Program-made: the position numbers and the translations under genes | The notes under the pieces: generated by a model | The model's database searches: none | Seen by the model: the letters and a program-made list of their open reading frames with translations, nothing else | What the model was told of the DNA's origin: nothing | Source: Bacteroidia bacterium | Lineage (GTDB): Bacteria > Bacteroidota > Bacteroidia > Cytophagales > Cyclobacteriaceae | Reading direction: 5' to 3' | Assembly (NCBI GenBank): GCA_030425425.1 | Contig: JAUIAO010000060.1 | Location: 1 to 35,539 of the forward strand | DNA length: 35,539 bases | Shown here: positions 801 to 27,327 of the stretch, one piece after another | Layout of the letters: each line of letters opens with the position of its first letter | How positions within the stretch are numbered: the first letter of the stretch is position 1

Positions 801-861
801 TTACCCCCTTACTTCTTACGGATTACCCCCCTCTTATTCAAACTTTGACCATCTAAATTGG
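801..861 (+). promoter_or_regulatory. Site A: tandem C-rich repeat plus -7-like box (putative HTCS-controlled promoter)
   Basis: Two direct copies of TTACCCCC occur at 801-808 and 823-830 (22 bp apart). TAAATTGG at 854-861 matches the Bacteroidota -7 consensus TAnnTTTG at 5 of 6 fixed positions and starts 23 bp after the last C. No good -33 TTTG box is present at the expected place, as would suit an activator-dependent promoter. The same arrangement recurs at 4948, 22941 and 27271. That it binds the HTCS encoded at 23133 is an inference. Confidence 0.5.
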
Positions 862-950
862 ACTTGTTTTTATCCTGATAAACTCAATTAGGACATGATT
901 CATGATTAAACATGTTTTGAGGGTTTATCACAAATCTTAAACAAAAACCT

Positions 951-3900
951 ATGATACAAATTCAACAACTATTTTTTAAACGTGCATTGCCAGCGTTGCT
1001 GTTGATGCTCAGTTTATTGGCATTTCAGCCATTAAATGCTCAAACGTTAATTAACCAGGCATTAAATGCCACAGTAACAGCCACTTATTCAGCTCCATGG
1101 GATGGGGATGCCGTAGCTGTGAATAATGGAGAAGTGGGTTATGGCCCGGCAGGAGATGGTACTCCTGAATTAGCTGGTGCTAACGCCTGGTGGAACTGGA
1201 GTGATAATCGGCCAGCTTCTGAGAGCCTGGAATATACCTGGGCTTCTGCACAGACATTGTCTAAAGTTATATTGTATTTCTGGGCTGATCGGACTGAATT
1301 ATCTGGCTGGGGAGATAATGTGGCAGTTCCAGAAAGTTGGAGCCTTCAGTATTGGGATGGTTCAGCCTGGGCAGATGTTGTGTTGGCAGATGGCCAAACT
1401 TATACGAGTAATTTAAGTGCTCCAAATGAAGTTGATTTTAATGAAATCAGTACAACCCAATTGAAATTAATACTCAATGCGCAATCTAATGGAACTACTT
1501 ACGCAGGTGTAGGTGTCACGGAATGGGAAGCCTATACTGTGACCACAGCAAGTGCTGATGCCAGCTTATCAGCTTTGACTGCTTCTGTAGGAACTTTATA
1601 TCCTGCATTCTCTATAGATACTTATGAATATAAATTAACTGTACCTGCAAGCACTACTTCAGTGGATCTAACGGCAACAGTAAATGACACAGGAAAAGCA
1701 ACAAAATCAGGAGACGGAACAATTTCTTTATCTGGAGATAAAAGTGTTGAAATCGTAGTTACGGCAGAGGCTGGTAATACTAAATCTTATACCGTGAATA
1801 TTACTGAGAATTTCATATTTAATCAAAGTTTTGATGGTGATCCAAACCTGCTTAGCTCTGGAAATTATAAAACTGATCATGCTGAACCACGATTAAAAAC
1901 AGCAAATGGTTGGGCGACAGAATATGCAGGAAATTCAGCAGGAGGAGTGTTTGAATATGGTTCTACAGCCCAGTTGAATGATTTTACCGTTCCAGCTTTG
2001 GATGCGGATGGTGCTACGCCTGCCGCAGGAAGTGGTTGTTTAGGAGTTCAGACATCTTGGGGAGATCAGGCTCTGTATTTTCAAGATGTCACTTTATCAG
2101 CGGGTACATACAAAATATCTTACAAAGCTTACAATGCTCATACCTCAAACACAAATACTCAAAGTTTGGTTGGATGGGTGCCTAATTCTGGTTCTTCATT
2201 CTTGTCAACTCTCACTAGTTTCCCAGTAGGTGCATGGACCGCCGATGAAGTTTTATTTACGCTAAGTGCTGAAACATCCGGTAGGATTCAGATTGGTGTG
2301 AAAGATATAGCTGGTGGTTCAGGAAGCAATCCAAGATTATTCTTTGACAACTTTAATATTGAAACTGTTACCCAGAGTGCGGATGCTCAATTAAAAACGC
2401 TTTCTGTGGATGCAGGTACTTTGATTCCGGCATTTGATCCTGATATAACTGAGTATTTTGTATTTGCTCCATCCTCTACTACCAGTGTAAATGTGAGTGC
2501 ATCTGCGAATGACGAGAATGCTCAGGGTATTTCAGGTACAGGTGCCGTAGATGTGAATTCCGGAAGCGGATATACGACTATTACGGTAACAGCTGAAGCG
2601 GGCAACACAAAGGATTATGTAGTACAAGTATTTGTGAATGATGCATCTAATCTTGTGAGTTGGAGCGATGGAAACGGTGGTGTTGCTACAGTTTCAGGAT
2701 CTGCTCCTAACGATTATGGTTGGGCTAATACTTCTGGCTATAATACCTGGACAGACTATAATGGAGGCGGTGGTTGCCGACTTAGAGATAATTATTCCGG
2801 TTATACTTATGAAGATGGAGGTGCCACAGTAACAGGTGCTCAGTTACTATTGAGATATGATGGTGATGCGGCAAGTGAAACAGCAGCATTCACCTACCCG
2901 GTTGTATTAGAAGCTAATACAGTTTATGATTTCTCTTTCGATTATGTATATGGAGGCAGTGGTTCTGCTCCAGGAGTGCTAACTGCAGGAATAGGTACTT
3001 CTAATGATGATGTTTCGGATGTAGCATCAAAAGATTTTGAAACAGCAAATAGCACTACTCTTTATAGAAAAGGAACTTTGACCTTTTTGTCTGGATCTGC
3101 AGGTGTTTATTACCTGAAGTTTAGTTGCAATGAGCGTTCATGGCAAGGTGTTAATAACCTAAATATTTCAACTTCGGATGTAATCGTATGGAATGGAGTT
3201 TGGTCGAATGGTAGTGGGCCTTCGGTCTCAGATGATGTTTTAATCGCGGCTCCATATACCGTAAGTTCTGATTTGCATGTAAACAATTTAGAAGTTGGTA
3301 GCAATGGTAGTATCACTGTTGAATCAGGTGCTTCATTGGTAATCATGGGGTCTGCGATCGGAAATGCGACTATCAATAGAAATACAACAGGCGATGCAGG
3401 TTACAGCATTGTTGGTGCACCTGTATCTGGTGCTGATTTAGCAGATCTTAATGCAGATTATCTATATTCTTGGGATGGAGCACTCTACAATGCAGAGACT
3501 TCAGGTACTATGACTCCAGGTGTGGGTTATTTTGCTGGTTATGATGCTGTAAGCCCTGAAATATCTTTGACTGGTGCTTTGGTTTCTGGAAATCAGTCGG
3601 TAGCTGTTACTGGTGAAGTTTCAGGTACACATGATGGGTTTAATCTGGTAGCCAATCCGTATGCATCAGCAATTGCAGTTGACCAATTCATCGCAGGAAA
3701 TAGTGTTTCTGCCGTATATCTATGGGATGATGGTGGAGCAAACAACGGTGCTGATCGTGCTGGTGATTACTATGTAGTGAGTACCATCGGATCTGTGGAT
3801 AATACAGTAGATTTAAGTCCTTCAGGCAACGGAACAAAAGGTGCCACAGGAGCTGAAAGTGGATTTATTGGATCTGCTCAGGGATTCTTTGTTTATGCTT

Positions 3901-4622
3901 CAGCTGACGGAACAGTTGATTTCACACCTTCGATGCAATCAACAACCGCTGGTTCCAATGCTGATGTCAACTACTACAGAACAGTACCTCAGTCAACTCT
4001 CAAACTTTCATTGAGTGGAGCACATTACAATGAAGTATTGTTTGGATTCAGACCAGACGCTACAGAAGGTGTAGATAGCCAACTTGATGTTCTGAAGAAA
4101 ATAGGAAACGAAAACTTTGCTTTTTATTCTTTCATAGAAGAAGGTCAGTATGCAATTCAAGGTCTTCCTGAGTTGAACGGTGAGACTCAGATTACACTGG
4201 GTTATGACGTGAAAGAATCTGGTGTTTATCAGTTGTCGATCAAAGAAATAGAAGGAATTGAGGGATATACCGTAGTAGCCAACTATAACGGTGTAGACTA
4301 TGACCTTTCTGAAGAATCCGCAAACCTAGACTTGTCTGCAGGAAAAGGTCAAATTTATCTGACTTTGTCTGCAAAGAACATTCTTTCTACTGAAAGGATG
4401 AACAGCAAATTGCAGGTTCGAGGAAGAGAGAATGGTTTGATGATCAACTTTGAATCTAATAGAGCAGAACAAGTAAGTGTGTATACTATGGACGGTAGAG
4501 TGATCTTCAATAGCTCGGTTGTTTTCGATGGAAATAACGCAGTGATCAATGCTACCATCGCTCGCAACCAAGTTTATATACTTAGAGTAAACGATCAGAG
4601 CATTAAATTCATCATGAAATAA
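951..4622 (+). CDS. Large secreted multidomain carbohydrate-binding-like protein with T9SS-type C-terminus
   Basis: 1223 residues. A signal peptide covers 1-30 (hydrophobic core LPALLLMLSLLAF, cleavage before QTL). Domains seen: a discoidin/F5-8-like beta-sandwich (about 31-200, LSKVILYFWAD); a cadherin-like beta-sandwich (about 200-285, ADASLSALTASVGTLYPAF); a jelly-roll CBM-like region (about 288-475, ending LFFDNFNIETV); a second cadherin-like domain (about 476-560); another CBM-like region (about 565-735, GVYYLKFSC); a long beta-rich region with the NLVANPYAS motif common in Bacteroidota surface proteins; and a C-terminal sorting-like domain ending VYILRVNDQSIKFIMK. I see no glycosidase or lyase active-site signature. 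It is probably a substrate-binding or cell-surface structural component. It lies 14 bases before the PID-CTERM-like small gene and is probably co-transcribed with it from site A. Confidence 0.85.
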   Translation: MIQIQQLFFKRALPALLLMLSLLAFQPLNAQTLINQALNATVTATYSAPWDGDAVAVNNGEVGYGPAGDGTPELAGANAWWNWSDNRPASESLEYTWASAQTLSKVILYFWADRTELSGWGDNVAVPESWSLQYWDGSAWADVVLADGQTYTSNLSAPNEVDFNEISTTQLKLILNAQSNGTTYAGVGVTEWEAYTVTTASADASLSALTASVGTLYPAFSIDTYEYKLTVPASTTSVDLTATVNDTGKATKSGDGTISLSGDKSVEIVVTAEAGNTKSYTVNITENFIFNQSFDGDPNLLSSGNYKTDHAEPRLKTANGWATEYAGNSAGGVFEYGSTAQLNDFTVPALDADGATPAAGSGCLGVQTSWGDQALYFQDVTLSAGTYKISYKAYNAHTSNTNTQSLVGWVPNSGSSFLSTLTSFPVGAWTADEVLFTLSAETSGRIQIGVKDIAGGSGSNPRLFFDNFNIETVTQSADAQLKTLSVDAGTLIPAFDPDITEYFVFAPSSTTSVNVSASANDENAQGISGTGAVDVNSGSGYTTITVTAEAGNTKDYVVQVFVNDASNLVSWSDGNGGVATVSGSAPNDYGWANTSGYNTWTDYNGGGGCRLRDNYSGYTYEDGGATVTGAQLLLRYDGDAASETAAFTYPVVLEANTVYDFSFDYVYGGSGSAPGVLTAGIGTSNDDVSDVASKDFETANSTTLYRKGTLTFLSGSAGVYYLKFSCNERSWQGVNNLNISTSDVIVWNGVWSNGSGPSVSDDVLIAAPYTVSSDLHVNNLEVGSNGSITVESGASLVIMGSAIGNATINRNTTGDAGYSIVGAPVSGADLADLNADYLYSWDGALYNAETSGTMTPGVGYFAGYDAVSPEISLTGALVSGNQSVAVTGEVSGTHDGFNLVANPYASAIAVDQFIAGNSVSAVYLWDDGGANNGADRAGDYYVVSTIGSVDNTVDLSPSGNGTKGATGAESGFIGSAQGFFVYASADGTVDFTPSMQSTTAGSNADVNYYRTVPQSTLKLSLSGAHYNEVLFGFRPDATEGVDSQLDVLKKIGNENFAFYSFIEEGQYAIQGLPELNGETQITLGYDVKESGVYQLSIKEIEGIEGYTVVANYNGVDYDLSEESANLDLSAGKGQIYLTLSAKNILSTERMNSKLQVRGRENGLMINFESNRAEQVSVYTMDGRVIFNSSVVFDGNNAVINATIARNQVYILRVNDQSIKFIMK

Positions 4623-4636
4623 TAACCAACAGAGAT

Positions 4637-4810
4637 ATGAAAAGTAACATCATAAAAATAGCCACAATACTTCCAGCGATCTTACTATTTGCAAGCCCTG
4701 CGTTTGCACAAGGCGCACCTCCAGCAACACCAATAGATGGTGGGTTGAGTCTTCTCCTGATAGCAGGAGGAGCATATGGAGCCAAGAAGATATATGAGAA
4801 AAGAAAATAA
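4637..4810 (+). CDS. Small PID-CTERM-like sorted membrane protein (57 aa)
   Basis: A 57-residue frame beginning MKSNIIKIATILPAILLF, with a signal peptide ending near FAQG. After a short proline/alanine linker comes PIDGGLS, then a hydrophobic stretch (LLLIAGGAYGA) and a basic tail KKIYEKRK. The order PIDGG, transmembrane helix, basic end matches what I recall of the PID-CTERM protein-sorting domain, one of the exosortase-type C-terminal signals of Bacteroidota. After removal of signal peptide and sorting tail only about ten residues would remain, so the mature product would be a tiny anchored peptide. It starts 14 bases after the 1223-residue gene and ends 24 bases before a terminator, so the pair looks like one operon. 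It is below the usual length cutoff for gene callers. The cognate sorting enzyme is not in this window. Confidence 0.75.
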   Translation: MKSNIIKIATILPAILLFASPAFAQGAPPATPIDGGLSLLLIAGGAYGAKKIYEKRK

Positions 4811-4834
4811 GTTATTTCAATATAGTTTTTAGGG

Positions 4835-4866
4835 AAAAGAGGCTGCCTTTGGGTAGTCTTTTTTTT
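4835..4866 (+). terminator. Rho-independent terminator after the PID-CTERM-like gene
   Basis: A 12-13 bp hairpin with some G-U pairs (AAAAGAGGCTGCC pairing with GGTAGTCTTTT around a TTTG loop) runs into eight T residues. It starts 24 bases after the stop codon. Confidence 0.75.
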
Positions 4867-4947
4867 GTTGCCAATTGCGTATTTCACTTTCATTTTAACG
4901 GCAGTACCATTCTATAAAAACTATCTATAATGAAGTAATACGTTGAT

Positions 4948-5008
4948 TTACCCCCTATTGTATTATGAATTAACCCCTGTTTGTGCTTGCTATTTTAATC
5001 TTATTTTG
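4948..5008 (+). promoter_or_regulatory. Site B: tandem C-rich repeat plus -33/-7 promoter boxes
   Basis: TTACCCCCT (4948-4956) and TTAACCCCT (4970-4978) are 22 bp apart. The second repeat abuts a perfect -33 box TTTG (4980-4983). After a 17-base spacer comes TTATTTTG (5001-5008), matching TAnnTTTG at 5 of 6 fixed positions. This is the best-formed promoter in the set. Transcription would start near 5015 and give a leader of about 50 bases before the ATG at 5067. Confidence 0.6.
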
Positions 5009-5066
5009 ATTCAACTATTTATCAATTCTACCTTGGTCAAGATCAGTGTGCCAAGCGTTTCTAAAA

Positions 5067-8000
5067 ATGAACAAAATGAAAACAAATCGACAAAACAAAG
5101 TACTAATATGGACCTTCGCACTTATTAGTTTACTATTTTCTGGAAGGCTCTCTGCACAGATCTTAGATTACACCCAGAAAATAGATCCGCCGATTACTGA
5201 CAAAGCAATTTTTTATGCATCCGTTCTTGTTTCGGATTTGGATGAAAACGGAACAGTAGATGAACTGATTGGACTTTCACAAGGTGATATGGCTGGTTAT
5301 GGTTCATTATCATGTATCATTAGATGGACTTCCGGAAGTGGTTATGTGGATGCTCACAATGGAAGTGGTTATAGTTTTGATCCTAACAATGCAGTACCAC
5401 TGCCAGATCTAATTTCCCAGCCTGAAGGCGAAAAATATGAAGTTTGGTTTGAAGTAGATGTAATAGCTGGAAGATATACTCCATGGGTGAAAGGACCAGG
5501 AATGACTGATCCTGTCAAAATTCTTGATAATGTGGAATTTAGAGCTAAGGGAGTAGCTCAGTTGGATACATGGACTGCTGTCCACCAGGTAGGAGGCGAT
5601 CAAGGGTTGGACGTTTTTACTGTAGGTGAGGTAGATCAGGTTGGTGATAGACATCCAAGCTACAATGAAGCAAGTATTAAGCAAGTAAGTTTTAGTCCTT
5701 CAGCACTCAATGGAACATGGGATCCGGAGGTGACAAATTACACTGCGACTTTCCCTTATGGAACTACAACTGCTGAAGTATCAGCTACTGCAGTGCAACA
5801 TGGTACAAGAATATCAAACCAGGGTACACTGGATGTATCTGCTGGTTCAGGACAACTTACCCTGGAAGCAACATCAGAAAGTGGAGATGCCACCAAAACT
5901 TACACTGTAGATTGGAGTGTGAATGACCCGGCAAAAGATGCTACTTTAAGTGCATTGACTATTGATGTTGGAGATTCAATTAATTTTCCAGGACTCAGTC
6001 CGGCGTTTGGACCTACAACTACCGAATATATGATAACTGTACCATATGGTACAAAAGAAGTAAATGTAAATGCGACAGCAAGTGCTGCTGGTGAAGGTGC
6101 AACTGTAGCTGGTGCTGGAATGGTTGATATTTCATCAGGCACAGGCCTTGCAACAATAGTAGTAACTTCCGCTGATCAATCGTCAACCAAAACATATACG
6201 GTTGAAATTGTAACAGAACTGTTTAATATCACTGGAATAACCCTTGATGCTACCTTATTCAATGGCAATGTGGTCAACGTTTATTATGGAATATTCGAAA
6301 GAGGTAATAGTTACGTGAAAGACCTTCCTGCAGGTACAGTTTCTATTGGAAACCTTTCCGTAACAGCTAATGACAGCAGTGCCATTTATGAGTGGTCAGA
6401 TGAATTGGTTTTGGTAGATGGTGAGGTCACAACACAACTCACAGCCATCCCTGAAGATTTATCGGATAGAGTAAGTTATGATTTGACGTTTAGGGTATTA
6501 CCATCTGCTGCACCTACTCAGACAGGTAAATTTGAGACTACTTTATCAGGTACTCATGTGATTTATGCGAAAATTAGTTACCCAAGTCGATATGGAGCTG
6601 ATGGTGTTTTTGGCCTGAGTAGCGATTACATGACAGAATACTCACAATTTTCTGCCGGATTTAGGTTCGTTAATGGATTGCCTATTCAGCTACACAATGG
6701 TGGGTACACTGCCACCGATGGTAATCCAAATATGGCTTATGACACGGTATATCATTGCTGGATGTCAGTAGATTTTACGGCCAGAACCTACAGCGTTTAT
6801 TATACAGTAGAGGGAGAGACACAGCGATATACGGTTGGTGAAGATGCGGTTTTTAGAAATGGTTTGGATTCTACAGCTACTCAATGGGGTGCTTACAGAA
6901 ATAATTTTACCGGATACACCGAAATGAATGTGATGAAAGTTGAATTGGTGTCAAGTGTGGGTGATATACCTGATCAAAAGTCGGATGCTACATTATCTGG
7001 AATCAATCTAAGTGCGGGTAAACTCAATGAAGCTTTCACTCCAGGTACAAACTCTTACACTGCAACTCTTCCATATCGTGTAACTTCTGTCAATGTGACG
7101 GCAGAGGCTACAGATCCTGCAGCCTTAGTCACAGGACAAGGTTGGATTCAATTGGATAGTACTGGAACGGCTACAGACACACTTACTGTTTTATCGGATG
7201 ATGGATCTGTGACTCAGAACTATTTCATCAGCTTCGATGCGCTATCTGCAGCAGAAGATGCTTCACTAAGTGAATTATTTGTTGAAGAAGGTGCGATTAA
7301 TCCTGTTTTTGATCCTGAAGAGTTGGCGTATTCACTGACTGTTCCTTATGCTACAGACTCTATTCATGTAGGAGCTGTCGCCAATTCAGATAGTGCAGCT
7401 GTTACAGGAGATGGTGCTTACCTTGTTGGTGATGGAGTTACGGTTGATGTTGTTGTTGTCTCCAAAGATCAGTCCGCCACTCAGAATTACACAATTGAAA
7501 TAACTAAAGAAGCCGCATCTAATGATGCTACCTTAAGTCACTTGAGAGCTAATAATGGTGAGTTTGATAAGGCTTTTGATCCTACTGTATTTGATTATGT
7601 TCTAACAGCTGAATTTGGAAAAGAGTCAGTTGAAATTAGATATCTTACAACTCATCCTGGAGCTATAGTATCAGGCGGCGGTACCATAGATCTCGTAGGA
7701 AAGGATAAAGAAAATGTTTCGATCGTAGTTACTGCAGAAGATGGAACAACGACAAGCACTTATTCAATTGAAATTTTAATAGGAGAAGCTTCTTCAGATG
7801 CAACATTGAAGAATATAATATTGAGTTCCGGCACCCTGAGCCCGATATTTGATCCGGAAACTTACAGTTATACTGTAGATGTGGTTTATGGTACATCTGA
7901 AGTGGAAGTGACTGCAGTTGCTAACCAGGAGGGAGCTGTTATCTCTGGTGATGGCACAATAGATGTAACTTCCGGATCTGGCACTGCTAACATATTAGTT

Positions 8001-8603
8001 ACAGCCCAGGATGGTACAGAGTTGACCTATACGGTTGCGATCACCGTTTTGCCAGGATCAGATGATGCCACATTATCTAGTCTAAATGTTCTAAACGCGA
8101 CTTTAGAGCCAGAATTTGATCCAGCCGTTTTCGAATATATAGCTGTAGTGCCTTTGGGAACCGCAACAGCCACATTGACGGCTGTAAAGAATGATGATAA
8201 AGCTACAGTCACTGGAGCAGGTGCTTTGGATGTGATCTCAGGGTCTGGCGTGGCAAATGTTGTAGTGACTTCTGAGACTGGTAATGTTTCTAATACCTAT
8301 CAGGTAACTGTATATGTTGGATCCAAACCAAAAGAGGAAGAGGTGCTTTCAGCTGAAGATTTACAAAATATATTTAATGTATATCCTAATCCTGCGTCGA
8401 ATTATCTTACTGTTGATTTGACTAACATTGATCAAACTGATCTAAAGGTATCTGTTTTCAACTTAGATGGAAGAACGAATGAATTGAAGGTTCAGGGTGG
8501 TCAGAAGCTAACTGTAGACTTGACCAATTATTCTAAAGGATTGTATATGATCAGAATCGAAACTGCTGAAGGGGTACTTTTCGGAAAGTTCATAAAAGAC
8601 TAA
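5067..8603 (+). CDS. Secreted cadherin-like repeat protein with two copies of an unnamed ~150-aa module and T9SS sorting domain
   Basis: About 1178 residues. I prefer the ATG at 5067 (or 5076) over the upstream GTG at 5046, because it places MKTNRQNKVLIWTFALISLLFSG directly as the signal peptide with cleavage near LSAQ. Layout: unnamed module copy 1 (about 25-190, WTAVHQV, VDQVGD); two cadherin-like sandwiches; a distinct beta region; module copy 2 (about 489-636, ending SSVGDIP); five more cadherin-like repeats, each starting like DATLSxL and containing FDP, GTIDV and Y(T/S)V; and a T9SS type A domain (VYPNPAS ... GKFIKD). There is no recognised catalytic site. It probably binds or scaffolds polysaccharide at the cell surface. 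It is preceded by site B and closed by a hairpin terminator, so it appears monocistronic, with the GH127 gene following. Confidence 0.85.
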   Translation: MNKMKTNRQNKVLIWTFALISLLFSGRLSAQILDYTQKIDPPITDKAIFYASVLVSDLDENGTVDELIGLSQGDMAGYGSLSCIIRWTSGSGYVDAHNGSGYSFDPNNAVPLPDLISQPEGEKYEVWFEVDVIAGRYTPWVKGPGMTDPVKILDNVEFRAKGVAQLDTWTAVHQVGGDQGLDVFTVGEVDQVGDRHPSYNEASIKQVSFSPSALNGTWDPEVTNYTATFPYGTTTAEVSATAVQHGTRISNQGTLDVSAGSGQLTLEATSESGDATKTYTVDWSVNDPAKDATLSALTIDVGDSINFPGLSPAFGPTTTEYMITVPYGTKEVNVNATASAAGEGATVAGAGMVDISSGTGLATIVVTSADQSSTKTYTVEIVTELFNITGITLDATLFNGNVVNVYYGIFERGNSYVKDLPAGTVSIGNLSVTANDSSAIYEWSDELVLVDGEVTTQLTAIPEDLSDRVSYDLTFRVLPSAAPTQTGKFETTLSGTHVIYAKISYPSRYGADGVFGLSSDYMTEYSQFSAGFRFVNGLPIQLHNGGYTATDGNPNMAYDTVYHCWMSVDFTARTYSVYYTVEGETQRYTVGEDAVFRNGLDSTATQWGAYRNNFTGYTEMNVMKVELVSSVGDIPDQKSDATLSGINLSAGKLNEAFTPGTNSYTATLPYRVTSVNVTAEATDPAALVTGQGWIQLDSTGTATDTLTVLSDDGSVTQNYFISFDALSAAEDASLSELFVEEGAINPVFDPEELAYSLTVPYATDSIHVGAVANSDSAAVTGDGAYLVGDGVTVDVVVVSKDQSATQNYTIEITKEAASNDATLSHLRANNGEFDKAFDPTVFDYVLTAEFGKESVEIRYLTTHPGAIVSGGGTIDLVGKDKENVSIVVTAEDGTTTSTYSIEILIGEASSDATLKNIILSSGTLSPIFDPETYSYTVDVVYGTSEVEVTAVANQEGAVISGDGTIDVTSGSGTANILVTAQDGTELTYTVAITVLPGSDDATLSSLNVLNATLEPEFDPAVFEYIAVVPLGTATATLTAVKNDDKATVTGAGALDVISGSGVANVVVTSETGNVSNTYQVTVYVGSKPKEEEVLSAEDLQNIFNVYPNPASNYLTVDLTNIDQTDLKVSVFNLDGRTNELKVQGGQKLTVDLTNYSKGLYMIRIETAEGVLFGKFIKD

Positions 8604-8622
8604 GTAGTATAACAAGCATTAT

Positions 8623-8653
8623 AAAACCTCGGATATATATTCCGAGGTTTTTT
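8623..8653 (+). terminator. Rho-independent terminator after the cadherin-like repeat gene
   Basis: Perfect 11-bp arms AAAACCTCGGA (8623-8633) and TCCGAGGTTTT (8641-8651) surround a 7-base AT loop and are followed by T residues. It lies 19 bases past the stop codon. Confidence 0.9.
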
Positions 8654-8778
8654 ATAATCAAAACGTCAATTCAAGATTAAACTCTCATTTTTTTCTAGAC
8701 CTCATTATGTGATGATGCAACTTCCGTAGATCAGGTGCTCTCAGAAACTAGTGATTAATCAAAAACTAACACCTAGCA

Positions 8779-10710
8779 ATGAAATATTCATTTATCCTAT
8801 TTCTTACTGGAATCTTCATTTTTTCTTGCCAGAAAAATGGTAACGTCACCTTAAATGAAGACTATCCCATTAAAAGAGTTGACGTGCGAAACGTCAAGCT
8901 CACTGATGATTTCTGGTTGCCAATAATTCATCGTGTTCAGGAAAAAACCATTAAATACGCACTTGAGAAATGTCAGGAAGAAGGCAGATTTGATAATTTC
9001 CTCATAGCCGGAGGCCAGATAGAAGGGGAGGTCAGAGGTAAGATGCCCTTTGATGATACGGATGTTTACAAAATCATTGAAGGAGCTTCCAATAGCTTGA
9101 TCAGCGCACCAAATGCAGACATGGAAGTACTTTTGGATTCAATTATTGAAATTATTGCTATCGGACAGGAGGAAGATGGATATTTAACAACATGGCGTAC
9201 CATTGACCCAGCCAAACCACCCGCAAACTGGGTGAAAGTAAAGGAAGGGAAGAGATGGGAATCTCTCGACATGAGCCATGAATTGTATAATGCTGGTCAC
9301 TTGTATGAAGCGGCAGTAGTCCATTATCAGGCTACAGGAAAACGAAATTTTTTAGATATAGCCATCAAGAATGCAGACTTAATTGTTGAAGTATTTGGTG
9401 AAAAGGAGGGGCAAATTAATGCTGTTCCAGGTCATCAAATCATCGAAACGGGTTTGTTGAACCTTTATAAAGTGACAGGGCGAGATGCTTACCGAGATCA
9501 GGCAAAGTTCTTTCTGGATCACAGGGGTGGGAATGGGTTTGGTCCGTATGCTCAGGATCATAAGCCTGTGACAGAACAGGATGAAGCCGTAGGACACGCG
9601 GTGAGGGCTGTATATATGTATGCGGCCATGACGGACATCATTGCAATGGAAAAAAGCAAGCCATATCAAAACGCGGTGCTAGATCTGTGGAATAACGTAG
9701 TTGATAAAAAAATGTACGTTACTGGAGGTATTGGGGCTGTTCATCATGGAGAGGCATTTGGTGATAATTATGAACTACCCAATCTGTCGGCTTATAATGA
9801 AACCTGTGCTGCTATCGGTAGTGTATATTGGAACAGTCGTCTATTTAACCTATTCGGTGATGTCAAATACAATGATGTGCTCGAACGCACTCTTTACAAT
9901 GCCGTAATTCCTGGAATATCTTTGAATGGACAGAGGTTTTTCTACCCGAACCCATTGGAATCCGATGGTGTATATGAATTTAATCAGGGAGCACTCACAC
10001 GTAAGGATTGGTTTGATTGCTCATGCTGCCCGACAAACCTTATAAGATTCCTGCCAGCAGTCCCGGGACTGATATATTCCACAAATGAAAATACCCTTTA
10101 CATCAATCAGTATATTTCAAATGAAGCTGAAATCCAACTCGATAACGGGGTATTTAGAGTGTCCTTGGAAACTCAATTACCATGGAAAGGCAAAACTGTT
10201 TTTAAAATACTGGAAGCACCATCTACCATCGCAGAGATTCGTTTTCGTATTCCTGGTTGGGCCAGAAATCAAGTTGTGCCTTCTGACCTGTATAGCTATC
10301 AAGATAGCTTGAATTATCCGGTGGTTTATAGGACTAATTGGGATTCAAATGAAGTCTCCCTGGATGAGAATGAGGAATTTCTATCGATTGAGCGTGCTTG
10401 GAGTAGAGGGGAGGAAATAGCACTTGAATTTCCAATGCAGGTACGAAAAGTTAAAGCAACGGAATACGTAAAGGAAGATTCAGGAAAAGTGGCGCTGGAG
10501 TATGGCCCACTTGTTTATGCTTTTGAAGAAGCAGATAATCCTGATCGGATGGATGATCTGAAATTGGAGAAAGAATATCGTATTCACTTTAATTCGGATT
10601 TACTTGGCGGTGTTAATGTATTGGAAGGTGAAACTGGCTATAAAGCCATTCCTTACTATTCCTGGTCAAATCGAGGACTTGGTAAAATGAAGGTTTGGTT
10701 GGATCAGTAA
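8779..10710 (+). CDS. GH127 beta-L-arabinofuranosidase-like lipoprotein
   Basis: 643 residues. The N-terminus is a lipoprotein signal with lipobox IFSC (Cys17), so the enzyme is membrane-anchored. The body matches the DUF1680/GH127 (alpha/alpha)6-barrel family throughout (KLTDDFW, DGYLTTW, GGIGAVHHGEAFG). Compared with the characterised Bifidobacterium enzyme HypBA1, as I recall it, the zinc-thiolate site is intact: E341 and C343 (YNETCA), C416 and C417 (DCSCCPTN), with C416 the predicted nucleophile and E325 the predicted acid/base. The family removes terminal beta-L-arabinofuranose, notably from hydroxyproline-rich glycoproteins. It is the first gene of a + strand run with a GH43 and a metallopeptidase. 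No repeat-type operator is seen in its 175-base upstream gap, which begins with a terminator. Family call firm; exact substrate inferred. Confidence 0.9.
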   Translation: MKYSFILFLTGIFIFSCQKNGNVTLNEDYPIKRVDVRNVKLTDDFWLPIIHRVQEKTIKYALEKCQEEGRFDNFLIAGGQIEGEVRGKMPFDDTDVYKIIEGASNSLISAPNADMEVLLDSIIEIIAIGQEEDGYLTTWRTIDPAKPPANWVKVKEGKRWESLDMSHELYNAGHLYEAAVVHYQATGKRNFLDIAIKNADLIVEVFGEKEGQINAVPGHQIIETGLLNLYKVTGRDAYRDQAKFFLDHRGGNGFGPYAQDHKPVTEQDEAVGHAVRAVYMYAAMTDIIAMEKSKPYQNAVLDLWNNVVDKKMYVTGGIGAVHHGEAFGDNYELPNLSAYNETCAAIGSVYWNSRLFNLFGDVKYNDVLERTLYNAVIPGISLNGQRFFYPNPLESDGVYEFNQGALTRKDWFDCSCCPTNLIRFLPAVPGLIYSTNENTLYINQYISNEAEIQLDNGVFRVSLETQLPWKGKTVFKILEAPSTIAEIRFRIPGWARNQVVPSDLYSYQDSLNYPVVYRTNWDSNEVSLDENEEFLSIERAWSRGEEIALEFPMQVRKVKATEYVKEDSGKVALEYGPLVYAFEEADNPDRMDDLKLEKEYRIHFNSDLLGGVNVLEGETGYKAIPYYSWSNRGLGKMKVWLDQ

Positions 10711-10864
10711 TTATTTATTAAGTTAACTCGGATTGAATAATTAGATCAGAATTACCCTCAAATACCTTTCAGCATTTGATTGAAATTAATTTACAATGAA
10801 TACATTAAGATTTAAAGGTCATTTTTATACCATAATACCATTATTCGGTAGAGCGACTACCCTA

Positions 10865-11854: not shown

Positions 11855-11868
11855 ATGAGGTAATTATC

Positions 11869-18107: not shown

Positions 18108-18149
18108 GATTGAGATTTTTTGTGAGAAGGTTTACAAGAAAAATGACGA

Positions 18150-19610: not shown

Positions 19611-19653
19611 TGGTAAAAGGATTTTTCTCTAAAAGGGTTGGTGAGACGATTCA

Positions 19654-22600
19654 CTATTCCTTGATGATTTTCAGAGTTTTGAACCCATTCACTTTCAAGA
19701 AATAAACTCCCGGAGACCAGCTACTGACATCTATTGCGGGTTTGGATAGGTCAGAGTACACAATTTGACCTAGAATATTTAAAACATCTACTCTCGAACC
19801 AGGTTGGACGTTTTTCAACATCAATATATTCTCTACCGGATTAGGATAGATTTCGAGAGTTTGCAGAGCCGGGCTACTCAGTATAGCCTCTGTTGTAGTA
19901 AATGACCATACTTCTCCCGAGTTTACAAATTCACTACCATCTTTTAATACAATATGTTCATCCACCTTCCAGTAGTAGGTAGTAGATGGTTCTAAACTTC
20001 CGATCAAACTTGCTCTGTCAAAACTGGTGAAGTCATCCAGAAATGTGGACTCAAGTACCATTGAATCAGGATGCGTGCCGAGATATAATTTATGAAGCTC
20101 CTCTTTTGTAGAGTCTGATTGCCAGGTGAGAATCAAATCACGCTCAACATCTACTGCTCCATTGGCAGGATAAGGGTTAGATGCTTTTTGGTATTCTACC
20201 GTTGAAAATTCCAATTCTTCTCCAGTTTGGAACTGTCCATCTACATAAGTATCAATTCTCCAATAGTATGTTTTGTTAAATTCAAGCTGATCTATCTCGT
20301 ATGAGTCCACACCCGCATCGAGATTAGCATGCAAAGGAGGAGGGTAGGAGTCACCAAAATACAATTGCTGTGAGATTGCACCTGACCTGGTATTCCATGC
20401 GAGAGTTGGTTCTCTGGAAATTTCCTTCGCCAGATGTTCAGGATAATTGAAGTTAACATCAATTTCTCTATCACCACTGTAAGCAAATGATGTAGGGTGA
20501 TTATAGTAGGCCCATCCTCCAGGAGTTCTGGTACCATCTCCATAGAAGTATGACCTCTCTGGATTACAGCCTGCCCATAGGACATAGCGTTCTACGAAAG
20601 GAGCATTTTCGAGCATAGTTGTCCATGCCTCAATAGTTTCCCCCTGAGATTCATAAGAAGGTAAACAACACGTCCAGTTACAACCATTGTTCCATTCGGT
20701 CACCCATACAGGCAGTCCCGTTCTATTATGCACATCAGCTAAAAAGTTATAAAACTGTTGTGTAGTTTGTCCTCCTCTGTAAAAGTGTATGGCTACAGCA
20801 TCTAGGCGGTAATTGTTTGCTTTACACTGATTGACAAAATCTACGAGCCATCCCACACCTCCGTCAGTTGGAGCAGGACTCACCATTCTTAGTCCTGAAG
20901 CTAACATATTAGGATATGCAGCTATTGCATCTTCTACGGAAGAGAATCCGTCATCTACTGAGTTGTCTGGTTCATTATAATATAATGCGTGAGTATAATT
21001 TTCGTTGTTCTGGATTCCATAATACCCTGGCCAGTTCGGATTATGTTTTAAAGGAACGAATTCCGTATTCAGCGTTGATTGCTCTCCAGAAGGGTTGCCA
21101 TGACTATATGTCCAACTCGCCTGTGCAGCCCAATCCCCATGACCGGGACTGCCTACATATCCTTTCTTATTAACCCACCTCCACGGAACCACTCTGATAA
21201 AAGAAGTAGTATTGAATAAGCCCTCGGGCATAGTATTTACAACTATATCTTCTTTATTGGCTATATATATCTTACTGCTTCCTGTGCCATTCGTCTTATC
21301 ACTGAAGGAAGCCATATAGCCTTTCTTGAGTACAAAAGACTCTACATTGTTATTGAAATCATCCAGATCTAATGTTTTATAATGGGTATGTACTTCCAGC
21401 TCCATGGATTCTCCGGATAGATTAGCATCTGTATAAATAGTTAATGGCTTATAGTCCTTCGAATGTCCAATGATTACACTTCCGTTTCCAAATTGTACTA
21501 ATCTGACATTTTCACCAACTAATACAGGCTGACCATATACCTGAATATTTTGGAGATAAAGATCATTGACAACCTGTGGTCGGATATGGTCAAAATATAT
21601 CCATGCATCTTCTGATTTGATGTTGAGCAATGTTCCGGCAAAAGGGTTTTCCTTCGTAAGAATGTGTATCTCCGCGGCACCTTCTAAATCGTATTTTTCC
21701 TGATCTAGATTAAAAAACACTCTTTTAGAATCTGATATGACTTTAGCAGGCTGTGCTTTATCTGTTGTGATGGTAGTATAGGTCTTTACTGACCCATCTT
21801 CAGCAGTAACTTCAATTTTGAAGTTGGTTTCAATAAGAGTTTCAGGATCATTGATGGTCTCAGATGATTTATCCAGAACTTTGAAGGTGGCATATTCAGA
21901 AACTTCTAATCCCGTAATGAATCTATAATAAGTAATGTCATTGTATAGGTTAAATACGTAGGAGGATGCATGATCAATGTCCGCTCCAAAAACGTAATAA
22001 AGCTGATTGTCGCTGCTGATTTCTCTTACCTGTAGCTGGTATTCACTTATTTGGGTGCCAGTGATTCTTAGTTTCATTTGACTTGTGATTAAGTCAGTGC
22101 TGGCACTGTTAATTGTATTGCCGGATTCATCTATGATTTCTGCCGTAGCGCTATTAGAAATTTCTATTCCAGACAAGAAATCAGCAATTGATACCGGGTC
22201 TAAATTCGAAATGGTCAGGTTGTCTTGGTCGATTGTTCCATATGCTGAGGACAACACATAAAAATCTGGAGGAAGCTCACCTACGCTGTTAACGATGGCA
22301 GTCTGAGTGACTAATAGTTGATTTGGAGAATTAGCCGAATTGTGAATTGCACTCCAAAAATTGAAAGAAGTAATGTCTTTTTTTCTGAATTGAGCATCAG
22401 CATGGATCAACGTTGGGTTATCCATTCCATTTGTCTGCACATAGGTACTGTAAGTTTGATTTGAAAAGTCAATATCAAACCAGCACTGATAGGTTTGTCC
22501 AAACTCGATGGCGACATTGTTAGTGCGGACATATGTTCCACTGTGTACGTCGAGGTACGGTTGGGCTTGGATATTATTGAATCTTAATATTGTAGAACAA

Positions 22601-22821
22601 TCTGTGTATGAAGTGATTGGGCCCTCTGAAAGAGTGAAAAGTGCATCTATGGTTTCTCCAGATGTATTGTCAGGAACCACCTCGAAATAATAAATAGTAT
22701 TAGCGGAAATAGCTGGAGATATTCCTTCCCTTGCATCTGTAGTCTGGCCTTGGGCAGAATTATAACCCAAAGAGACAATTGTTAATAAGAGTAAATACCA
22801 GATTTTTTTAATGTTGTGCAT
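19654..22821 (-). CDS. T9SS-exported GH128-like glycosidase with N-terminal unnamed module and C-terminal FN3 pair
   Basis: 1055 residues. A signal peptide ends near residue 25 (SAQGQ). About 27-190 is the unnamed module shared with the 5067 and 28290 genes (TYSTYVQT, FRKKDI, FWSAIHN, VNSVGELP). Two Ig/cadherin-like stretches and a beta-rich region follow. About 555-780 resembles the glycosyl-hydrolase catalytic core family (Glyco_hydro_cc, GH128). Its key residues are YNEPDN with predicted acid/base E617, AIHFYRGG, and VWVTEWNNG with predicted nucleophile E709. Two FN3-like domains (TYYWRIDTY, TYYWKVDEH) and a T9SS type A domain (IYPNPVEN ... LKIIKE) complete it. GH128 enzymes cut beta-1,3-glucan, but this divergent copy may have another beta-linked substrate. 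It is the first gene of the minus operon, so it is probably its most upstream surface enzyme. Confidence 0.8.
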   Translation of the reverse strand: MHNIKKIWYLLLLTIVSLGYNSAQGQTTDAREGISPAISANTIYYFEVVPDNTSGETIDALFTLSEGPITSYTDCSTILRFNNIQAQPYLDVHSGTYVRTNNVAIEFGQTYQCWFDIDFSNQTYSTYVQTNGMDNPTLIHADAQFRKKDITSFNFWSAIHNSANSPNQLLVTQTAIVNSVGELPPDFYVLSSAYGTIDQDNLTISNLDPVSIADFLSGIEISNSATAEIIDESGNTINSASTDLITSQMKLRITGTQISEYQLQVREISSDNQLYYVFGADIDHASSYVFNLYNDITYYRFITGLEVSEYATFKVLDKSSETINDPETLIETNFKIEVTAEDGSVKTYTTITTDKAQPAKVISDSKRVFFNLDQEKYDLEGAAEIHILTKENPFAGTLLNIKSEDAWIYFDHIRPQVVNDLYLQNIQVYGQPVLVGENVRLVQFGNGSVIIGHSKDYKPLTIYTDANLSGESMELEVHTHYKTLDLDDFNNNVESFVLKKGYMASFSDKTNGTGSSKIYIANKEDIVVNTMPEGLFNTTSFIRVVPWRWVNKKGYVGSPGHGDWAAQASWTYSHGNPSGEQSTLNTEFVPLKHNPNWPGYYGIQNNENYTHALYYNEPDNSVDDGFSSVEDAIAAYPNMLASGLRMVSPAPTDGGVGWLVDFVNQCKANNYRLDAVAIHFYRGGQTTQQFYNFLADVHNRTGLPVWVTEWNNGCNWTCCLPSYESQGETIEAWTTMLENAPFVERYVLWAGCNPERSYFYGDGTRTPGGWAYYNHPTSFAYSGDREIDVNFNYPEHLAKEISREPTLAWNTRSGAISQQLYFGDSYPPPLHANLDAGVDSYEIDQLEFNKTYYWRIDTYVDGQFQTGEELEFSTVEYQKASNPYPANGAVDVERDLILTWQSDSTKEELHKLYLGTHPDSMVLESTFLDDFTSFDRASLIGSLEPSTTYYWKVDEHIVLKDGSEFVNSGEVWSFTTTEAILSSPALQTLEIYPNPVENILMLKNVQPGSRVDVLNILGQIVYSDLSKPAIDVSSWSPGVYFLKVNGFKTLKIIKE

Positions 22822-23132
22822 AGTAATTTTTGTTTGCCAAAACAGTATTTATTTGAAATGCCAATTCACTGCTTTTTGTGTTTAATGTAAATATGTTGAT
22901 CCATGACTAAATAGAAAACAATGTGCAGCAACTATACAAATTCCCCCTTTCTATAAAACGAGTATAACCCCTCTCAAGACCTTGGTTTAGGTTCTCTTTG
23001 AGTGGGTTAAAGGAGGGTGGTTATTTTCTGATTTGATTAATCCGTATTACATTGGCATATATTACGATTTACTGCATATACCTTTATCAATCAGACGATT
23101 TTGGTAGTTTTAAAGATCAATAGGATTAGGAA
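22822..23132. other. Divergent intergenic region between the GH128-like operon and the HTCS gene
   Basis: This 311-base region has no credible gene. It is AT-rich next to the minus-strand start and contains the C-rich repeat pair (site C, 22941-23000) oriented toward the HTCS gene. I could not define a matching operator or -33/-7 pair for the minus-strand operon. A weak candidate at 23004-23022 is listed among the rejected items. Confidence 0.7.
22941..23000 (+). promoter_or_regulatory. Site C: tandem C-rich repeat upstream of the HTCS gene (possible autoregulation)
   Basis: TTCCCCCT (22941-22948) and ATAACCCCT (22964-22972) form a repeat pair at 24-25 bp, slightly wider than the other sites. 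TCTCTTTG (22993-23000) matches TAnnTTTG at 5 of 6 fixed positions and starts 22 bp after the last C. The orientation points at the HTCS gene, leaving a leader of about 125 bases. It may instead serve the divergent minus-strand operon from the other side. Confidence 0.4.
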
Positions 23133-26100
23133 ATGGAATACGAAATCACAGGGGTGAAAAATTTAATATTCGTCTTGTTAAGATGGATCAGTCGCAGGGA
23201 TTTTTGTAGGTTATTCTTAATCGCAATAATGATTACACCCCCTAGCTTAGGTGTGGCTCAGGTGGATTATAAAATCAGAAACATTGGGATAGAGCAAGGA
23301 CTGGCGAATAATTCAGTAACTGCAATTTTCAAGGATTCCAAAGGCTTTATGTGGTTTGGTACCTATGATGGATTAAGCAGGTATGATGGCTATGAGTTTA
23401 AGAATTACCGTAACATTCCAGGAGATTCTACTTCCTTAATAAATAATAGGATAGTCACTATTTGCGAATCTGAAGATTTGATCTGGGTAGGGACAAAATT
23501 TGGCTTGTGCGTATATGACTACAAAACGGATAAATTCAGACCGTGTAAGTATATCGATCCGGAAGGTAAGCTGAACAGCGTAGATTTTGATATTAACGAC
23601 GTGATTGAATTCCAAGATAAGACTGTGGTATCTACTGGAGGCAGAGGACTACTAATTGGGAATCAGGAAAAGTTGCTTCAAATACAAGCCATTACCGAGG
23701 AAGGTGAAACTTTCAATGAATTTCACGCTCAATACGCAGATTTTGATGCTGATCACAATCTATGGGTATTTATTCAGGGATTAGGCCTGGCCAAAAAGAG
23801 TGCAGGAAAATCGAGACTTGAGATTATCAACAAGGGTACCCTAAGTTCGCATTGTATGGCTTTTAATGGTTCAGGAAATATTTGGATGGGTATGGATCGC
23901 GGTGTGTTTAAATACAATATTGCGAGTAATCAGGGGCAATACCTCACTCAACCAGCACTGAATCATTTTGTTACAGACATTCAATATATCCCTCAGAGAG
24001 AGGAAATTTGGGTGACTGCAGGAGTAAAAGGTATAGTGGTAGTGGATGAAAAAGATAACTCAATAAGCCTAATAGATAAAGGAGCTGATGATACCAACTT
24101 TCCTAGTTATTCAATGGAAGCCATGTATTGGGATGAGATCAATAATGTGTGGGTTGGTACGCTTAAAGGAGGAATATCAAGGGTGGAATTTGGCAATAAT
24201 TCAATAAGAACAATTTCAAAGGAAAATTCAAGGTTTGCCGGCTTAGCTAGTGATTTTATTTTATCATTCAATGAACAGAAAGACGGTCAGATTTGGATCG
24301 GGACTGATGGGGGCGGAGCTAGTCTTTGGAATCGGAAAACAAATGAATTTCATACGATTTCAGCATCGATGGGTAATACTATAGGTAGCGATTGGGTAAC
24401 ACGTATTGTTGAAACCGACGATGGAACTTGGTTTGCCACTTATGGAGGCGGTTTAACTCTTCAGAAGGAAGATGAGTCTTTTTTAAGATATGATTTAATA
24501 GACGGTTATGGCAACCAACAAGTGGATGTTTGGGATTTATTAGTGACTAGAAATGGAGATTTGTGGGTAGCTACCATAACCGGAAATGGTCTTTTTAAAT
24601 ACAATAATTCTTCCGACTCTTTTGATTTTTACTCTACGGGTATAGATGGTGTAATCACCCTTAGTGAGAGCCCTGATGGTAGTCTTTACCTTGGCACTTT
24701 TAGCCAATTGATCAAAATGGATCTGACCTCTGGCGATCAAACTGTGATCTATGTTGGTTTTCCTGTAAGAGACATCATTTATCTTAAAGACGAGACGCTT
24801 CTAGTCGCTACAGAAGGCAAAGGATTACTCCATTTCAATCCAAAGTCAGGTGAAAAAAAGTTTTATACTACAGAAAATGGCTTGCCTAATAATTCTGTTT
24901 TAAAAATTATTCAAGATGACTTTGGATTCTTTTGGTTAACCACTTTTAATGGGTTGTCAAAATTCGACATGCGCGAATCCAGTTTTACCAATTACTACAG
25001 TGATGATGGATTACAGTCGAATCAATTCAATTATAACGCTGCACTTAAGCTGGAAGATAGTAGCATACTAGTAGGCGGAATCAATGGGTTCAATATAATA
25101 GATCCTGAAACGAAAAGCGATGAAAGCACCTTTCCCGATGTATTAATCACAGGAATTAAAGTGAGGAATGAACCTCTGAAAATCACATACGGAAATACAG
25201 TTTTTGATACAAAGGAGCTGGAATTACCTTATGACGAGTCTATGCTATCATTCAGTTTTGTTGGTTTTGAATATCGTAAGCCATTCAAGATTTCATATGC
25301 TTACATCATGGAAGGGTGGGATGAAGAATGGCATGAGGTTGGTGACGCCAGAGTTGCTAATTATTCAAAAATTGAGCCCGGTGAATATGTTTTTAAGGTC
25401 AAATCGACAGATACGCAAGGAAATTGGAATGATGAGTATACAGAGCTGAAAGTAAAGATCTTACCGCCCTGGTATTTGACATTGTGGGCATTTTTGCTTT
25501 ACATCTTGGGAGCGATGGGATTGGTCGTCGGGACCTTGTTGTACCAAAGAGAACGCCATAATCTCAAATATGATCTGAAGCTGTCCAAAGAATTAGCCAA
25601 ACAGAACCGAGAGTTGAATGAGAAGAAACTGACTTTCTTCACGAACATATCACATGAGTTTGGCACACATCTAACTATGATTGTGAATCCACTCAAGGAA
25701 GTGTTGTATGGTGAGAACGATCAAACAGATAGTGTGGCGATTGAGGCGGCCTATCAGAATGCACGTAGATTGCTCAGTTTGCTTGATCAGCTGTTGCTTT
25801 TCAGGAAAATTGAGAGTGAAACCGGGGAATTGAAAATCGCCAAACTGGACGGAATTGAACTCTCTAAGGAAGTATATACTTGTTTCATTCATCAGGCAAA
25901 AGCGCGCAATATCCAATATGAATTTCGGGCTAATGTCAGTGATTGTGTCATATATGGAGATAGGCAGAAGCTGGAAATGGCACTGTTTAATATCATTTCT
26001 AATTCTTTGAAATTTGCCAGCAAGGAAAATGGAATAGTCATTGTAGAAATCGAAAATCAAGATGAAAACATCATTTTGAGAGTTCAGGACAATGGTCAGG

Positions 26101-27260
26101 GAATTCCAGAGTCGGAAAGAAGCAAAGTTTTTGATCTCTTTTATCAGACAGAAGTAGGGGGGAAACCTTCCAAACGTGGTTTTGGAATTGGCTTGTACTT
26201 GGTAGGGAAATTCGTTGAAATGCACAAAGGAGAGGTTAATATTTCAGACAGCTCATTTGAAGGTGCCCAGATCGAGATTATCCTTAAAAAAGGAAATAAT
26301 CATTTTGGCGATAATGTAGAGATGCTGGTGGATGAAGGCGAACACTCCACTTTATTAGAAGAAATGGTTGTAGAAGAATCATCTGAGCATAAGGAAAATT
26401 CAGACATCTCCCCTGATGTTTCCGGCCAATTGATTCACAGCAATCAGATGGTTTTTATCATAGATGACAATGATCAGATTCGAAAATACCTACGACAGAT
26501 TTTGTCTTCTGAATATTCTGTGATGGAAGCCGCCAGTGCCGAAGAAGCATTAAAAATATTAAAAACCGGAAGTCTTCCTGACTTGATCATATCCGATGTA
26601 GTGATGCATGAAATCAATGGTGTAGAGCTGGTAAGGAAAGTAAAAGAGGATGACAATTGGAGACACATTCCCGTTGTGCTCCTGACCAGCAGTAAATCAG
26701 ATGAGATCAAACTGAAAGGTGCTGAGGTAGGCGCGGATGACTATATCTCAAAACCGTTTGATAAGGGATATCTAATGGCAAGAATCAGAGGGATTTTGAG
26801 AAGACAAAAGGATATTCAGGATCACCTTCTCAGTGAGGTAACCAAAAAACCAGAGAATAATAAACTTTCAGAAGAAGATAAAATGCTTCTGGACAATGTA
26901 ATGTCTCTAATCGAAAAGCGCATGACGGATGAGGGCTTTAACATTAAGTTGGTTGCAAAAGAGATTGGTTTGAGTCATAGCCTGCTCTACAAAAAAATCA
27001 AGCAGGTTACGGGGAAGTCAGTAAATGAGTTCATTAGATTCATTCGTCTTAGAAAAGTCGCAAACTTGCTTATTACTACAGATATGCAAATCAATGAAGC
27101 TGTATATAAGGCAGGGTTTAGTGATCTGAAATATTTTAGAAAGCAGTTTCAGCTGCAGTATGGAATGAACCCGTCAGAGTTTCAAAAGAAATATAGAAAT
27201 GCGCTGAAGGATAAACAGTACATCCTAAACAAATCGATTTTTAGTAAAGCAGACGCTTAA
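23133..27260 (+). CDS. Hybrid two-component system sensor/regulator (HTCS)
   Basis: 1375 residues in one chain. A signal/anchor segment near 25-43 precedes a periplasmic double propeller of Reg_prop repeats (about 50-690, e.g. GFMWFGTYDGLSRYDGY, IWIGTDGGG). Then come a Y_Y_Y domain (about 710-780), a transmembrane helix (about 783-803) and a histidine kinase with H841. ATPase boxes are NIISNSLKFA, DNGQGIPESE and GFGIGLYLV. A receiver domain has acidic DDND, phospho-acceptor D1155 (ISDVVMHE), LLTSS and SKPF. An AraC-type DNA-binding domain ends it (GFSDLKYFRKQF). The H-box reads SHEFGTHLTMI, whereas HTCS proteins usually have SHEFRTPLTLI, so the conserved Arg and Pro are replaced by Gly844 and His846. 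HTCS proteins sense oligosaccharides in the periplasm and activate nearby glycan-use genes. It sits between the two divergent enzyme operons. Confidence 0.95.
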   Translation: MEYEITGVKNLIFVLLRWISRRDFCRLFLIAIMITPPSLGVAQVDYKIRNIGIEQGLANNSVTAIFKDSKGFMWFGTYDGLSRYDGYEFKNYRNIPGDSTSLINNRIVTICESEDLIWVGTKFGLCVYDYKTDKFRPCKYIDPEGKLNSVDFDINDVIEFQDKTVVSTGGRGLLIGNQEKLLQIQAITEEGETFNEFHAQYADFDADHNLWVFIQGLGLAKKSAGKSRLEIINKGTLSSHCMAFNGSGNIWMGMDRGVFKYNIASNQGQYLTQPALNHFVTDIQYIPQREEIWVTAGVKGIVVVDEKDNSISLIDKGADDTNFPSYSMEAMYWDEINNVWVGTLKGGISRVEFGNNSIRTISKENSRFAGLASDFILSFNEQKDGQIWIGTDGGGASLWNRKTNEFHTISASMGNTIGSDWVTRIVETDDGTWFATYGGGLTLQKEDESFLRYDLIDGYGNQQVDVWDLLVTRNGDLWVATITGNGLFKYNNSSDSFDFYSTGIDGVITLSESPDGSLYLGTFSQLIKMDLTSGDQTVIYVGFPVRDIIYLKDETLLVATEGKGLLHFNPKSGEKKFYTTENGLPNNSVLKIIQDDFGFFWLTTFNGLSKFDMRESSFTNYYSDDGLQSNQFNYNAALKLEDSSILVGGINGFNIIDPETKSDESTFPDVLITGIKVRNEPLKITYGNTVFDTKELELPYDESMLSFSFVGFEYRKPFKISYAYIMEGWDEEWHEVGDARVANYSKIEPGEYVFKVKSTDTQGNWNDEYTELKVKILPPWYLTLWAFLLYILGAMGLVVGTLLYQRERHNLKYDLKLSKELAKQNRELNEKKLTFFTNISHEFGTHLTMIVNPLKEVLYGENDQTDSVAIEAAYQNARRLLSLLDQLLLFRKIESETGELKIAKLDGIELSKEVYTCFIHQAKARNIQYEFRANVSDCVIYGDRQKLEMALFNIISNSLKFASKENGIVIVEIENQDENIILRVQDNGQGIPESERSKVFDLFYQTEVGGKPSKRGFGIGLYLVGKFVEMHKGEVNISDSSFEGAQIEIILKKGNNHFGDNVEMLVDEGEHSTLLEEMVVEESSEHKENSDISPDVSGQLIHSNQMVFIIDDNDQIRKYLRQILSSEYSVMEAASAEEALKILKTGSLPDLIISDVVMHEINGVELVRKVKEDDNWRHIPVVLLTSSKSDEIKLKGAEVGADDYISKPFDKGYLMARIRGILRRQKDIQDHLLSEVTKKPENNKLSEEDKMLLDNVMSLIEKRMTDEGFNIKLVAKEIGLSHSLLYKKIKQVTGKSVNEFIRFIRLRKVANLLITTDMQINEAVYKAGFSDLKYFRKQFQLQYGMNPSEFQKKYRNALKDKQYILNKSIFSKADA

Positions 27261-27270
27261 TTGATTTCAG

Positions 27271-27327
27271 TCCCCCTTTTAGTATGAATTAACCCCCGTT
27301 GAGAGTGCAGTTGTAGGAGGATATTTG
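27271..27327 (+). promoter_or_regulatory. Site D: tandem C-rich repeat plus promoter boxes for the GH16-lyase-GH105 operon
   Basis: TCCCCCT (27271-27277) and TTAACCCCC (27289-27297) are 21 bp apart. GTTG (27298-27301, one mismatch to TTTG) and GATATTTG (27320-27327, 5 of 6 to TAnnTTTG) are separated by 18 bases. The -7-like box starts 23 bp after the last C. The predicted start of transcription is near 27334, so the GTG at 27332 cannot be the initiation codon if this promoter is used; the GTG at 27356 would be. Confidence 0.55.

Follow-up and report, generated by a model that had tools for sequence, protein, structure and literature searches.

Tandem C-rich repeats as predicted operators of an HTCS regulator in a PUL of a Cyclobacteriaceae genome

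HTCS regulators govern much of the polysaccharide use in Bacteroidota, and AraC-type activators occupy tandem half-sites beside the promoter, arranged as a direct repeat about two helical turns apart. The HTCS operator predictions that we found in print concern gut Bacteroides: in an excerpted study, operators were predicted for 16 HTCS of B. thetaiotaomicron as direct repeats lying on average 21 bp apart, and the Bacteroides operators precede PUL operons, the HTCS gene sharing its locus with susC/susD (Ravcheev et al. 2013, PMC3878776). According to excerpts of a second study, phosphorylation enables or enhances binding of the receiver and DNA-binding domain (DBD) of B. thetaiotaomicron HTCS to susCD promoters, and the HTCS receiver carries an S/C-H-I-P motif (Gao et al. 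2024, PMC11253607). The promoter recognized by the primary sigma factor of Bacteroidota is quoted, in part of PMC7366714, as TAnnTTTG at -7 with TTTG near -33, and the same source describes Flavobacterium johnsoniae as having no identifiable -33 element.

We analyzed a window of 35,539 nucleotides, the complete contig C5 of a 5.85-Mb draft genome in 121 contigs. It encodes an HTCS in which the Reg_prop/Y_Y_Y sensor, HisKA, HATPase, receiver and AraC-type HTH lie in one chain, the composition that defines the class. A preliminary description had proposed that four tandem C-rich repeats, each followed at a fixed distance by a TAnnTTTG-like box, mark promoters under the control of this protein. 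All four repeats are present on the plus strand, in the gaps before the 951, 5067, 23133 and GH16 genes (Table 1). Each comprises two C-runs with T/A-rich letters ahead, and among the sites of this genome the spacing of the runs varies by 4 bp, from 21 to 25 bp. The boxes agree with TAnnTTTG at 5 of 6 positions and begin 22-24 bp past the last C, corresponding to the offsets of 21-23 also seen in relatives; for four random intergenic anchors in the window, a shared 3-bp band of boxes occurred in 0 of 20,000 draws. The sites do precede transcription units, with the amendment that the proposed operon at 951 is in effect a single gene, since 5067, which follows it, is preceded by a separate site. 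For the GH16 gene, a second in-frame GTG at 27356 yields a lipoprotein-like signal (MIRNAALILLYLYLTSC, judged by eye). This codon is probably the true start rather than GTG 27332, which sits at about the expected start of transcription.

Table 1. Predicted operators, promoter boxes and adjacent genes in the window. Matrix, score with the relatives-trained matrix; profile, E value and start of the match.
Feature	Position	Strand	Description	Matrix	Profile
HTCS operator 1 (predicted)	801..831	+	direct repeat TTACCCCC...ATTACCCCCC; precedes 951 gene; C-run starts 804/826, 22 bp	31.2	E 0.0019, at 797
-7-like box TAAATTGG	854..861	+	TAnnTTTG, 5/6 positions		
Cadherin-like domain protein, putative target	951..4622	+			
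HTCS operator 2 (predicted)	4948..4978	+	precedes 5067 gene; C-run starts 4951/4974, 23 bp	28.7	E 6.6e-4, at 4946
-7-like box TTATTTTG	5001..5008	+	TAnnTTTG, 5/6 positions		
Cadherin-like repeats and type IX sorting tail, putative target	5067..8603	+	longest ORF from GTG 5046; ATG 5067		
Candidate HTCS operator 3	22941..22972	+	precedes HTCS gene; C-run starts 22943/22968, 25 bp; weakest	20.7	absent from matches at E<=10 (150/622 first-look candidates scored)
-7-like box TCTCTTTG	22993..23000	+	TAnnTTTG, 5/6 positions		
HTCS	23133..27260	+	Reg_prop, Y_Y_Y, HisKA, HATPase_c, receiver, AraC-type HTH_18		
HTCS operator 4 (predicted)	27271..27297	+	precedes GH16 gene; C-run starts 27272/27293, 21 bp	25.4	E 5.5e-4, at 27270
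-7-like box GATATTTG	27320..27327	+	TAnnTTTG, 5/6 positions		
GH16 protein, putative target	27332..28258 (ORF)	+	followed at short distance by 28290-32816 and 32831-35359		

The half-sites are short, low-complexity stretches, as would be expected if C-rich tracts had been chosen by eye and owed their arrangement to chance. The genome-wide counts and their controls argue against this reading. The pattern CCCCCTN{9,16}TWACCCC has six exact matches in the 5.85 Mb, four in the window and two on contig C31, compared to none for its backwards version; when these half-sites are set at 30 other spacings (N{17,46}), the genome contains two matches and the backwards control likewise two. This pattern was composed after the sites had been seen, so that its counts alone could flatter the finding, and the independent test is therefore provided by a matrix and a profile built on relatives. 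The matrix, trained solely on 48 sites from relatives and run over the window and C31, assigned at least 20.7 to all six exact sites and added a seventh on C31 (20.5), the last C of which lies 133 bp upstream of the start codon of susC; in the 25 top-scoring matches from these two contigs, the six exact sites and the susC site were the only places above 17.5. The profile, comprising 33 sites of relatives together with their -7 region, gave five matches in the own genome at E<=10, with 150 of 622 first-look candidates scored. All five belong to this PUL, namely operators 1, 2 and 4 of the window and, on C31, the site at 4071-4137 and the susC site at 21280-21343; the exact sites at 22941 and at C31 9213 were absent from them. 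The motif is thus not scattered over the genome, all six exact sites belonging to this PUL or to what is likely its second half, and the profile, for the candidates scored, points to the same locus. Considering also the conservation in relatives described below, we regard a chance origin as scarcely credible.

Contig C31 (21.9 kb) carries PUL genes on its minus strand, including a SusC-type gene with TonB plug and carboxypeptidase-like domains, SusD, and genes for DUF4959/DUF5126/DUF5000 and DUF4998 proteins, GH2, GH43-like and BNR_4 products. A cadherin-like/fn3 protein gene overruns the end of this contig (L009:2-3970), and the first ORF of the window (1-648) encodes a partial protein that combines an fn3 domain with a type IX sorting tail. 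Because fn3-type repeats are found in both, C31 and C5 are probably neighbours, that is, two halves of one PUL at which the assembly broke within the fn3 repeats; a search for an overlap directly joining the two contigs found none. The enzymes encoded in the window include two GH127, one GH43, two GH88 and one GH16, which suggests an arabinose- and uronate-containing polysaccharide as the substrate of the PUL. The best 25 matrix matches include no separate site for the minus-strand genes from 22821 to 14424 or for the GH127 gene at 8779. The seventh site (L016:3313-3344, before susC on C31) is a variant of the form GACCTC...TTTACCCC, and a similar GACCT form is present at the Flavobacterium loci L050, L055, L063, L065, L067 and L092.

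Taking these data together with the comparison of relatives, we consider it very probable that the repeats, situated just upstream of the -7 element, serve the HTCS encoded at 23133-27260 as operators, and we strongly infer that the HTCS itself binds them. A search with the HTCS yielded 191 related stretches, of which the best 80 were kept, representing 79 distinct loci with 34-43% identity from genera including Chitinophaga, Niastella, Flavobacterium, Sphingobacterium, Pedobacter and Parapedobacter. At most 600 bp from the HTCS match, we counted 64 C-run pairs with a spacing of 20-25 bp, compared to about 3.5 expected from the remainder of the same 79 loci. Pairs at 21 bp formed a sharp peak (33 observed vs 0.6 expected), and a pair was found near the HTCS in 50 of the 79 loci. 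In a first proximity count, made with a stricter pattern, 31 sites in 23 of 79 loci fell near the HTCS and 12 far from it, compared to 3 near and 7 far for the reversed control. A SusC-like gene with its first ATG at most 1.5 kb after the HTCS is present in 52 loci. Of these, 40 contain a site, and in every one (40 of 40) a site is located strictly within the interval from the HTCS stop to the susC ATG and is directed at susC (likewise 40 of 40 when 300 bp of slack is allowed); the other 12 of the 52 loci have no C-run pair. Operator 4 of the window, like these sites, lies downstream of the HTCS gene.

In a leave-one-out matrix analysis, 59 of 76 downstream flanks reached at least 16 vs 0 of 76 on the opposite strand, three of the 79 loci being left out owing to flanks that were too short. 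Plain reversal was discarded as a control, with 45 of 76 still reaching at least 16, because C-runs survive reversal, and the opposite strand was used instead. At a threshold of 18, a downstream site was found in 53 of 79 loci, an HTCS-directed site in two and a divergent one in three; elsewhere in the 79 loci there were 11 matches between genes and three within ORFs. Across 676 kb of the relatives' DNA upstream of the HTCS, two places reached a score of 20, both of them intergenic. The distance to the promoter box recurs as well: boxes with at least 5 of 6 positions were counted 24 times at offsets of 21-23 past the last C vs 18 times at the other offsets in the range 0-44, offsets 0-3 accounting for ten of the 18. 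Such a box at offset 21-23 accompanies 22 of 55 sites, the remaining 33 being without one. In the Chitinophaga loci L030, L031, L033, L037, L083 and L084 (near 14100), three consecutive C-runs are present rather than two.

The DBD of the window HTCS, compared over 94 positions, is 42-61% identical to those of 78 of the 79 relatives (that of L085 is too short), whereas the corresponding values are 29-44% for 28 further HTCS from its own family and 56% for the G190 ortholog, both measured over a slightly different span. In the receiver, the window protein reads RHIP and is the only one with R among itself and the 79 relatives; the residue before HIP is S in 40 and another residue in 30 besides the R of the window, and nine have no HIP. 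G190 encodes the closest ortholog that we found (46% identity over the whole protein). In the 60 kb read from this genome there is one intergenic C-run pair, located downstream of the HTCS, in front of a TonB-receptor gene and the SusD gene after it; upstream of the ortholog, no C-run pair occurs in the stretch read. Within the own family, a C-run pair is found near 4 of 29 HTCS, one being the G190 ortholog, and downstream of these 29 HTCS, repeats counted irrespective of their sequence at periods of 20-22 bp numbered 4, 4 and 1, without a clear peak. Three loci of one other genus in the window's family (L104, L121 and L125) have C-rich tandem repeats near an HTCS with a DBD about 38% identical. 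According to these comparisons, the repeats have a period of about 21 bp (21-25 bp in the window), stand before susC on C31 and recur beside the orthologous regulator of G190. The expectation that the motif is conserved at promoters of relatives is thus borne out by the sites between HTCS and susC and by that before the G190 TonB-receptor gene. Such conservation beside HTCS and susC, along with the restriction of the sites to the PUL, supports the repeats as plausible operators of the HTCS as far as sequence comparison reaches.

We also searched for the motif in other genomes. The pattern TTTACCCCCN{11,16}TTWACCCC proved too strict for finding relatives, matching in 3 of 395 genomes of the class, with 5 matches in the backwards control; by eye, one of the two non-own matches is flanked by the end of an HTCS and by a SusC-like gene, and the other lies near an integrase-like ORF. 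The 33-site profile, run over 25 genomes of the family of G567, gave 13 matches in six genomes at E<=0.01; G567 had been picked owing to its earlier match to the strict pattern and contributes two of the 13. All 13 lie between ORFs and ahead of a co-directional ORF, eight precede SusC-like genes, and six have an HTCS end at most 0.4 kb upstream. For the remaining seven, examined in 20 kb with the site near the middle, one has an HTCS about 5 kb away and one an HTH fragment. The longest nucleotide match of these sites to the 79 loci is at most 75% identical. The AraC-type HTH fragment (L155:9631-9774), positioned just upstream of a profile match before a SusC-like gene, is perhaps an HTCS remnant.

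Five of the 13 matches have no HTCS match within about 10 kb on either side, as might be expected if the repeats were operators of another DNA-binding protein encoded elsewhere, with the HTCS a mere neighbour. We regard this as improbable: the adjacency of HTCS and site recurs over many loci, direct repeats averaging 21 bp are the architecture predicted for HTCS in the excerpted Bacteroides study (PMC3878776), and the HTCS is the sole regulator recognisable by Pfam among the 22 PUL proteins scanned in the window and on C31.

Having assigned the repeats as a set to the HTCS, we examined the site at 22941 separately. The preliminary description had extended the regulon to the HTCS gene itself. 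Autoregulation through this site is possible but weak; it is the weakest part of the proposal and depends on the poorest of the six exact matches. The exact pattern and the box before the HTCS gene stand, and the site is one of only six such matches genome-wide, with its 5/6 box at the right distance on the plus strand and a matrix score of 20.7. Yet this score is the lowest of the six, the 25-bp spacing is the widest, and the site is absent from the profile matches (150 of 622 first-look candidates scored); moreover, an HTCS-directed site was found in only 2 of 79 relatives, and the G190 ortholog is without an upstream C-run pair in the stretch read. These features would agree with the sites being HTCS operators while the one at 22941 does not drive the HTCS gene, but is a chance match or serves the divergent operon from 22821, the first gene of which starts 120 bp away. 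We give this reading a considerable chance, though one short of even.

For the HTCS as regulator of the PUL, we envisage the following sequence of events. The sensor part would detect a sugar fragment, upon which the receiver would become phosphorylated. Two AraC-type DNA-binding domains could then occupy the two TTTACCCCC half-sites, which lie about two helical turns apart and thus on one face of the DNA, and the bound domains may help RNA polymerase at promoters whose -33 region coincides with the operator end. As a result, the PUL, that is susC plus several units encoding enzymes or binding proteins, would be switched on. The TTTACCCCC half-site is found in the own genome and at HTCS loci of Chitinophaga, Niastella, Flavobacterium, Pedobacter-like and other genera. 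We lean, by a small step beyond even odds, toward a broader proposal, in which TTTACCCCC direct repeats would be the shared operator of one large HTCS clade with a SHSxLYKK-type DBD across environmental Bacteroidota, the bound HTCS standing in for the -33 element at a constant distance to the -7 box. If this holds, the targets of many uncharacterised HTCS could be read from sequence, even where they lie at a distance from the regulator gene. An operator that can be searched for and keeps a recurring distance to the promoter would make it possible to predict regulons in relatives from soil and water, and the sites offer a defined probe set for asking by what means an AraC-type domain joined to a sensor kinase activates the unusual promoters of Bacteroidota.

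Compared with AraC-type activators in general, the direct repeat described here is likewise promoter-adjacent with about two helical turns between its halves, whereas its DNA-binding domain shares one polypeptide with a sensor kinase. The -7-like boxes that follow the operators by 21-23 bases resemble the primary sigma promoter of Bacteroidota as quoted in PMC7366714; in contrast to that promoter, the operator ends at about the place where the -33 element would be. With the predicted Bacteroides HTCS operators, as excerpted from PMC3878776 and compared by architecture rather than by letters, the sites share two direct repeats about 21 bp apart before PUL operons; the half-site here is TTTACCCCC, with a recurring distance to a -7-like box. 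The architecture of HTCS operators was thus already known, and the present analysis contributes the C-rich half-site letters, their occurrence across several genera and the recurrent spacing to the promoter box.
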